Origin: Geodermatophilus sabuli
Lineage (GTDB): Bacteria > Actinomycetota > Actinomycetes > Mycobacteriales > Geodermatophilaceae
Direction of reading: 5' to 3'
Length of the DNA stretch: 64,000 nucleotides
Assembly: GCF_900215145.1 (NCBI RefSeq)
Contig: NZ_OBDO01000005.1
Span: 310,001-374,000 of the forward strand
Both the position numbers and the translations under genes were made by a program. Below the pieces are notes generated by a model. The model had not been told where the DNA came from and did no database searches. It saw only the letters and a list, made by a program, of their open reading frames with translations. Of this stretch, positions 12,392 through 13,436 are shown one piece after another (position 1 is the first letter of the stretch; the number at the start of each line of letters is the position of its first letter).

Positions 12392-12545
12392 ACCGGCGCT
12401 CCACCGAACGGCAGCAGGCCCAGTCACCACATCGATAGATCCCCCGTGCGGGAGATCTCCAGTGCGGGCCTCCAGCGGCGAACCGGCGTCCCGACGGCTG
12501 CCCGGTCCCGGGCCCGGGTAGCCGTCTGTCAGTCCGGCGCGGCGG

Positions 12546-12611
12546 TCAGCATCCGCAGTCGCAGGTCTCGTCGCAACAGTCGGAACCGCAAGCACACGTC
12601 AGCTCGAGCAT
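12546..12611 (-). CDS. Very small cysteine-rich peptide (21 aa, 7 Cys), metallothionein-like
   Basis: A 22-codon reading frame starts with ATG at 12611 and ends TGA at 12546. The peptide has 21 residues with Cys at positions 6, 8, 12, 13, 17, 19 and 21 plus four acidic residues, giving CxC, CC and CxCxC patterns like metal-thiolate peptides. A Shine-Dalgarno GGAGGTGA lies 6-7 bases upstream, inside the 3' end of the MerR gene, which it overlaps by 13 bp. It is therefore probably translated from the merR transcript. Metal or metalloid binding is inference from composition and context. It is far shorter than known bacterial metallothioneins. Confidence 0.65.
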   Translation of the reverse strand: MLELTCACGSDCCDETCDCGC

Positions 12612-13039
12612 GGGAAGTCACCTCCCTCCGCGGGCAGGCACCAGGTGCCGGGGCTCGGTGGGGGGCAGGAGGCGTTGGGCAGGGCGTCGGCCATGGCCGC
12701 CATCTCGGCACGCAGGGCCGTCAGTCGGGCGATCTCGGCATCGACCTCGGCGAGGCGCCGGCGGAGCAGGTCCTCGGCGGGCTCGCAAGGACAGGTGCCG
12801 GTGTCGCGGACGGTCAGCAGCGTGCGGATGTCGGCCAGGCGCAGGCCGAGGCGCTGCGCGCCCTGGATGAACCTCAGCCGGTCGAGCGCGCCGGTGTCGT
12901 AGCTGCGGTAGCCCGCGGCCGTGCGCTCGGGCGCCGGCAGCAGACCGGCCCGCTCGTAGTAGCGGATGGTGTCCGGCCGCACTCCGGCGGCAGTCGCCAG
13001 CTCCGCGACCCGCAGTCCCCGTGCCGCCGTGGTGGTCAT
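12599..13039 (-). CDS. MerR-family heavy-metal-responsive regulator
   Basis: A 146-residue MerR protein. The winged HTH is clear (VAELATAAGVRPDTIRYYERAGLL at about 10-34, then GYRSYDTGALDRLRFIQ), followed by the dimer helix. Likely metal ligands are C83 and C85 in GTCPC before the long helix, with further Cys at 125, 134 and 144 near the C-terminus. This fits the CadR/ZntR/PbrR-type sensors, but the metal cannot be assigned. The ATG at 13039 directly follows a MerR-type promoter, so the mRNA is likely leaderless and autoregulated. The Cys-rich peptide overlaps its 3' end. Confidence 0.88.
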   Translation of the reverse strand: MTTTAARGLRVAELATAAGVRPDTIRYYERAGLLPAPERTAAGYRSYDTGALDRLRFIQGAQRLGLRLADIRTLLTVRDTGTCPCEPAEDLLRRRLAEVDAEIARLTALRAEMAAMADALPNASCPPPSPGTWCLPAEGGDFPCSS

Positions 13040-13046
13040 GTGGCGG

Positions 13047-13078
13047 ACGCTAGACCTTGGACCGTGGTCCAAGGTCAA
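13047..13078 (-). promoter_or_regulatory. MerR-type promoter with perfect inverted-repeat operator
   Basis: Reading on the minus strand, TTGACC (13078-13073) and TAGCGT (13052-13047) are separated by 20 bp, longer than the usual 17, as in MerR-regulated promoters. The spacer is a perfect inverted repeat: arms GACCTTGGACC and GGTCCAAGGTC around 2 bp (13053-13076). Transcription would start at about 13040, next to the ATG at 13039, predicting leaderless mRNA. Confidence 0.8.
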
Positions 13079-13436
13079 CCCGCGAGTCGACCATCCCGAG
13101 CAGAAGGCGTCGGCGCCCTCGGGGGTGTTGTTGAGGGCCAGTAGGGCGAAGGCGTCGAGAACGATCTCTTGCCGGTCGAGCCGTCCTCGCGTGGGCGGGA
13201 TGGACCTCTACCTCGCCGACCCCGACGGGCCGACCGCCGTCGATGTTCCAACGTGCGCTCCATCGCCTGACCAGCGCGGCACCTTGAAGGGCGCCTCGGA
13301 CTGCTTCGGAGGAACCGGGCGCCCTTCGCCATCCGGGCTGTGTCCGCTCCGGCGTGGCAGTCACAAACAGGACGGCCAGGCGCTGACTTCCGTGGCGTGC
13401 CTGCGAGCCACAGCGCCCGTGACCACCCGTGACCAG
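13079..13436. other. Gene-poor stretch with a possible PIN-domain remnant
   Basis: No intact gene is seen in these 358 bp. On the minus strand at about 13090-13175, one frame reads EIVLDAFALLALNNTPEGAD, which looks like the first strand and helix of a VapC-type PIN-domain toxin. It has no start codon and runs straight into the MerR operator. It is too short to call. Confidence 0.4.

Follow-up and report, generated by a model that had tools for sequence, protein, structure and literature searches.

A MerR-type sensor gene paired with a short cysteine-rich reading frame in Geodermatophilus sabuli and its actinobacterial relatives

Regulators of the MerR family act through promoters with an over-long spacer. 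Among the small metal binders of actinobacteria, MymT has about 53 residues and stands under a different regulator from the one considered here. It is named as the mycobacterial copper metallothionein in the available part of PMC12193353, which also presents SmtB-SmtA, a cyanobacterial ArsR-type repressor with a metallothionein. The accessible portion of PMC4633059 reports mycobacterial cysteine-rich small open reading frames (ORFs) that are unannotated, lie on leaderless mRNAs upstream of other genes and are proposed to be cis-acting leaders. The locus described here, a merR-type sensor gene followed by a 21-codon cysteine-rich ORF, lies in a 64,000-nucleotide stretch of Geodermatophilus sabuli (contig NZ_OBDO01000005.1, positions 310,001 to 374,000), the window. 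No description of such a pair was found in searches of an open-access full-text library, judged by title and the opening of the abstract, with subscription papers mostly uncovered.

A cysteine-rich reading frame behind merR

The ORF encodes MLELTCACGSDCCDETCDCGC, in which seven of 21 residues are Cys. The peptide has metallothionein-like features, being short and Cys-rich with C-x-C and C-C motifs. A preliminary description of this DNA had pointed to a frame of one-third Cys (12611-12546), a strong ribosome site and a 13-bp overlap with the merR 3' end (12611-12599), and all three can be read directly; 9 nt separate the GGAGG of GGAGGTGA from the peptide ATG. Neither the window peptide nor the further relatives' peptides scanned matched Pfam or NCBIfam, scans that have little power for queries this short. 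Gene callers tend to overlook ORFs of this size. On Rhodococcus pGA1, a 19-residue ORF, MHDCCEDPMCPPELCGCGC, follows merR where no gene is entered in the (incomplete) gene table of the record.

Relatives of the locus were gathered by MerR sequence alone. The first set consisted of the 20 closest of 80 loci (58-90% identity; the remaining 60 reach at most 47%) from a search that required exact eight-residue patterns. In 18 of these 20, merR is followed by a Cys-rich ORF of 16-28 codons with a purine-rich ribosome site, starting anywhere from 20 nt before to 32 nt past the end of the merR stop codon. A second and larger collection, 179 distinct MerR-like genes, was divided by a sensor signature (C-x-C plus a W..C/R tail, at least 85 bits) and judged by a strict rule: ATG or GTG start, 12-40 residues, at least five Cys and 20% Cys, a purine-rich site, and a start between -30 and +80 of the merR stop. 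Codon-position GC was used to choose 745 non-MerR control ORFs from 71 stretches, of which the window is one. The rule is satisfied by 42 of 60 signature MerR genes, by a single one of the 116 other MerR genes and by none of the 745 control ORFs. The pairing of merR with a Cys-rich mini-ORF is real and not a product of chance, and the lack of a conserved Cys pattern downstream of related merR genes, which by the preliminary description would have refuted its reading, was not borne out.

Twelve of the 18 signature genes that fail the strict rule are still accompanied by a Cys-rich partner. It is fused to MerR in three (L115, L124, L136), longer in four (L131, L134, L199, L201) and marked by a shifted start or weaker site in four more (L022, L098, L128, L184), and in L145 the merR frame runs on through it. 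The others have a thioredoxin-like partner (L117, L138), two Cys only (L126) or no partner (L013, L023, L121).

The sensor has the MerR winged helix and dimerisation helix. Its C85 aligns to a Cys of MerR and CadR, and C125-x8-C134 has a spacing that we take to be that of Hg-MerR and PbrR, the tail itself not being aligned to them. Scores lie under the NCBIfam equivalog cut-offs for MerR (93.4 vs 150.85), the Zn regulator (91.6 vs 143), CadR-PbrR (85.6 vs 151.45) and CueR (71.3 vs 147.4). The protein is best described as a Cys-bearing relative of the MerR metalloregulators behind a promoter of MerR type, in keeping with its earlier designation as a MerR metal sensor.

That promoter has a perfect operator dyad, CCTTGGACC-AC-GGTCCAAGG, in the 20-bp spacer between TTGACC and TAGCGT (Table 1). 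The long spacer with its perfect inverted repeat had been noted before, and the layout is kept in relatives. Among 44 merR genes with a mini-peptide, a survey that left out the partial merR loci L025, L103 and L184, TTGACC (5 or 6 of 6)-N20-TAnnnT occurs in 34 and a dyad of at least 8 of 11 in 37; an in-frame start lies no more than 10 nt from the -10 box in 41, with L098, L100, L102 and L165 counted via a GTG that overlaps it. The range first assigned to the unit located the merR operon correctly, but its start at 13078, the mechanical ORF start TTG, sits in the -35 box, and the ATG at 13039 is the likelier start of merR. Since this ATG lies 7 nt past the -10 box, the merR mRNA is probably leaderless by geometry; the available part of PMC4633059 describes leaderless translation as robust in mycobacteria. 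At three or fewer mismatches the dyad is matched at one place in the 64-kb window (0.03 expected) and one place in the 5.5-Mb genome, so the merR-peptide unit probably controls only itself. The peptide ORF is the last of the unit, and the gene beyond it, for a PucR-type regulator, is convergent. The hairpin in between has a z of -2.17, and 5 of 200 shuffles fold equally well.

Table 1. Features of the merR-peptide unit, in window coordinates
Feature	Position	Strand	Basis or remark
-35 box TTGACC of the merR promoter	13073..13078	-	sequence; equivalent layout in relatives
Operator dyad CCTTGGACC-AC-GGTCCAAGG within the 20-bp spacer	13055..13074	.	sequence and dyad search
-10 box TAGCGT	13047..13052	-	7 nt ahead of the merR ATG
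merR-type sensor gene, 146 aa	12599..13039	-	Cys at 83, 85, 125 and 134
Peptide ribosome-binding site GGAGGTGA within the last merR codons	12618..12625	-	sequence; comparable sites in relatives
21-codon Cys-rich peptide ORF MLELTCACGSDCCDETCDCGC	12546..12611	-	sequence, conservation, selection
Hairpin 3' of the peptide ORF, possible transcript end	12493..12526	-	fold; no U run after it
Scar of an ArsR-type gene C-terminus (..TPEGADAFCS..)	13091..13156	-	comparison by eye

Selection, variants and spread

Differences among close homologues indicate that the peptide evolves as a protein, under selection. Summed over 15 overlapping pairs, from which pairs of unequal length or below 50% identity and all codons overlapping merR were dropped, the proportions of nonsynonymous and synonymous differences (pN and pS) are 0.063 and 0.274, a ratio of 0.23. 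Cys is retained at 94 of 98 positions, compared with 112 of 142 for the remaining residues. In 14 of the 15 pairs the DNA of the peptide ORF is more similar than the next 60 nt, compared ungapped.

A tree of the MerR core (98 rows, 110 columns) was built by a quick method, with 46 of its 95 inner branches open. Non-signature MerR proteins were thinned to one in three, to which a few named ones were added, and rows were excluded when their motif was odd or their core had fewer than 85 residues. The sensor clade comprises 58 rows with a Shimodaira-Hasegawa-like approximate likelihood ratio test (SH-aLRT) value of 91, not starred; its partners are 43 mini-peptides, three fused peptides, five longer Cys-rich proteins and two thioredoxin-like proteins, and five rows have none. 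With the two thioredoxin-like partners scored as partners, the with-partner label changes six times on the tree, against a mean of 32.0 after shuffling, and none of 500 shuffles is as low. By this tree the peptide bearers form one clade, with a few scattered exceptions.

Variant forms also occur within the group. In three MerR proteins the peptide forms a C-terminal extension, read in frame, with the purine-rich site and the internal ATG retained, and two tandem peptides are found at three loci (L120, L129, L171). The tandem copies, the longer Cys-rich partners and the in-frame fusions support a partnership between the two products.

The longer partners downstream of merR have 59-81 residues (L131, read in part, L134, L199, L200, L201), and several combine CxCGC...CGCxCC with a C-terminal part that is charged and helix-like. 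No family was found for the four that were scanned in full or in part (L199 lay outside the scan). In L117 and L138, the same type of sensor is followed not by the peptide but by a small protein that resembles thioredoxin and has CxxC and CC motifs. A deeper MerR group (L191, L193 and the minus strand of L142) is Cys-rich in its C-terminal tails or in neighbouring ORFs. Three copies are decaying, with merR frames altered near the 3' end: the peptide ORF is kept in L101 and L145 and lost in L144, which also lacks the -10 box.

In the window's own family, a MerR match at E<=1e-25 occurs in 38 of 96 genomes, and 19 of the 96 have a match above 158 bits, the close type. An even draw across the phylum gives matches at 1e-25 in 40 of 396 genomes, and an even draw across the class gives six of 394 at 1e-35, the window's genome among them. 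One small other class has a profile match at 1e-30 in 17 of 24 genomes. Such uneven counts mark the module as patchy rather than universal.

A possible sensor-buffer circuit and its rivals

A fairly probable reading is that merR and the peptide form one self-contained, autogenous sensor-plus-buffer unit for a thiophilic ion. The MerR-type protein would occupy the dyad between the -35 and -10 boxes of its own gene, 20 bp apart, and the ion would bind C83 and C85 of one subunit together with C125 and C134 of the second, as the analogy to MerR proteins suggests. The ion-bound regulator would then remodel the promoter and switch on a single leaderless merR-peptide mRNA, from which the peptide ORF, with its strong ribosome site, would be translated in coupling with merR. 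By chelating the inducing ion in the cytosol, the Cys-rich peptide may detoxify it, and by drawing the ion off MerR it may shut the switch again. The preliminary description had likewise seen a self-contained pair of sensor and peptide sink. The conserved peptide, its selection as a protein, the MerR promoter and the unique operator bear out the pair; that the peptide serves as a metal sink is an inference.

Several observations weigh against this circuit in its simplest form. The sensor Cys residues are not universal outside one 26-row alignment: L102 and L103 lack C125, and the Rhodococcus pGA1 sensor lacks C134, yet its peptide is present. The peptides themselves differ in length, Cys number and Cys spacing. 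Five of the 58 clade rows are without a partner and two have the thioredoxin-like one. In L164/L086, the pair formed by the window and its nearest relative and the sole exception among the 15, the 60 nt past the peptide are more similar than the peptide. Two further points, the 40 of 55 sensor-clade loci that have no ArsC-like neighbour and a pump that fits more than one metal model, bear on the ion.

As inducer we envisage a soft ion, for example As(III), Cd(II), Pb(II) or Hg(II). Neighbouring genes were counted within 5 kb of 55 sensor-clade loci and 20 control MerR loci. ArsC-like genes occur at 15 of the 55 and none of the controls, and a fragment that we provisionally label ACR3-like at seven of the 55 and none of the controls. 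The ArsC-, ArsK- and ArsO-like references score under the model cut-offs, so these names are approximate. In the window, a scar of an ArsR-type gene lies directly upstream of merR, where several relatives have that gene intact. The unit could accordingly be part of an arsenic-resistance island, its sensor responding to As(III) or Sb(III) and its peptide binding arsenite as an accessory to the ars genes. This is possible but doubtful: 11 of the 15 ArsC-neighboured loci come from the window's own family and four from elsewhere (L222, L223, L224, L228), P-type ATPase, CsoR or CDF genes adjoin a few other sensor-clade loci, and the ArsC-like genes of the source genome sit on other contigs than the window. 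Taken with the scar, the last point indicates that the pair here has outlived at least its ArsR neighbour, and the missing ArsC-like neighbours together with the ATPase, CsoR and CDF genes mean that the neighbourhood does not fix the ion. An arsenic island is in any case more a choice of ion within the sensor-buffer unit than a separate mechanism. We know of no MerR protein with arsenite as its ligand.

Within ~1.2 kb of merR, four of the 55 sensor-clade loci (L227, L210, L214, L023) have a gene for a small membrane protein of the YnfA family, as against none of the 20 controls.

The unit had also been described as having no transporter. This holds for the window, where a search with reference transporters found no P-type ATPase, CDF, ArsK-like MFS, ACR3-like fragment or YnfA match within 5 kb of the unit. 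It does not hold throughout the group, in which some relatives lie near arsenic-type genes and others, which have no peptide and are carried by Streptomyces (L262) and Mycobacteroides (L263, like L013) plasmids, are divergent from a cation P-type ATPase. At loci of the L262/L263 type, a dyad lies between the two genes and TTGA(C/T)T-N20-TAGNGT, found by eye, is directed at the ATPase; one type of sensor thus seems to be coupled to a peptide at some loci and to a pump at others. The L013 ATPase passes the NCBIfam general heavy-metal, cadmium-family and copper models, and so does not name the ion. The ATPases at L262:2817-4826 and L013:1857-3872 have a Cys-rich N-terminus and a CSC motif where the ion site usually lies.

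A second alternative gives the peptide a regulatory task: it would be a dedicated regulator or chaperone of MerR that delivers or strips the ion and sets threshold and recovery time, rather than a bulk sink. Strict pairing with one MerR clade, overlapping translation, three fusions to the MerR C-terminus and an operator that controls nothing else in the genome at three or fewer mismatches would all suit such a role. We nevertheless consider it unlikely, as the loose Cys spacing and length speak against a specific fit between two proteins, and the longer Cys-rich and tandem forms resemble extra binding capacity. It is very improbable that the ORF is a Cys-responsive leader or attenuator, its codons sensing cysteine or charged tRNA and acting in cis. 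Cys-rich small ORFs upstream of mycobacterial genes are proposed as attenuators in the accessible portion of PMC4633059, and a hairpin does follow the peptide ORF; a leader must precede the gene that it regulates, however, whereas this ORF comes after its regulator, is last in its unit, faces a convergent gene and is fused to MerR in three relatives. Moreover, Cys codons switch synonymously while Cys is kept, the codon differing at 8 of 94 kept positions. A chance ORF can practically be dismissed: short ORFs are common in such GC-rich DNA (21 of at least 20 residues in 1.2 kb), but no control ORF fits the strict rule, pN/pS is low and the frame holds the same place across the whole clade.

A broader proposal, on which we are evenly divided, is that the sensor-buffer unit represents an overlooked family across several classes of one phylum: mini-metallothioneins, mostly of 16-28 residues, each with a leaderless autogenous MerR of its own clade. 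Fused forms would be sensors with a built-in sink, or autobuffers, and some members would respond to arsenite. If the circuit operates as proposed, it would add very small encoded metal-buffer peptides with dedicated sensors to actinobacterial genomes. Sensing and buffering on one mRNA would make a compact two-gene circuit, useful for studying how peptide buffers set sensor thresholds and possible as a part for biosensors or remediation. The combination of sensor clade, conserved operator and ribosome site would also provide a repeatable route to functional ORFs of 16-28 codons.

Comparison with described systems

CadR, PbrR691, ZntR and Hg-MerR share with this sensor the fold, a dyad in an over-long spacer and one sensor Cys. 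The present protein differs in scoring below every NCBIfam equivalog cut-off and falling in a clade of its own, in having an extra Cys two residues ahead of the shared one, and in its target: where those regulators serve an efflux pump or reductase, this one would serve its own promoter and a tiny Cys-rich ORF. The mycobacterial Cys-rich small ORFs, as far as the accessible portion of PMC4633059 describes them, are similarly unannotated, tiny, Cys-rich, actinobacterial and on a leaderless transcript; the ORF here, in contrast, is downstream of a regulator and fused to it in some relatives.

MymT is likewise a small Cys-rich actinobacterial metal binder, as the present peptide may be, but differs in size and regulator; the comparison was made via Pfam and NCBIfam scans alone, which gave no matches. 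The SmtB-SmtA system is alike in that a metal sensor governs a Cys-rich metal-binding product, if the peptide here does bind metal. It differs in that the sensor here is of MerR type and, to judge by the layout, activates the promoter of its own gene, and in that the product has 21 residues and no Pfam match, as against the metallothionein of ~10 kDa given in the available part of PMC12193353. The association of a metalloregulator with a Cys-rich metal-binding product is known; the pair described here would be an unusually small form of it.
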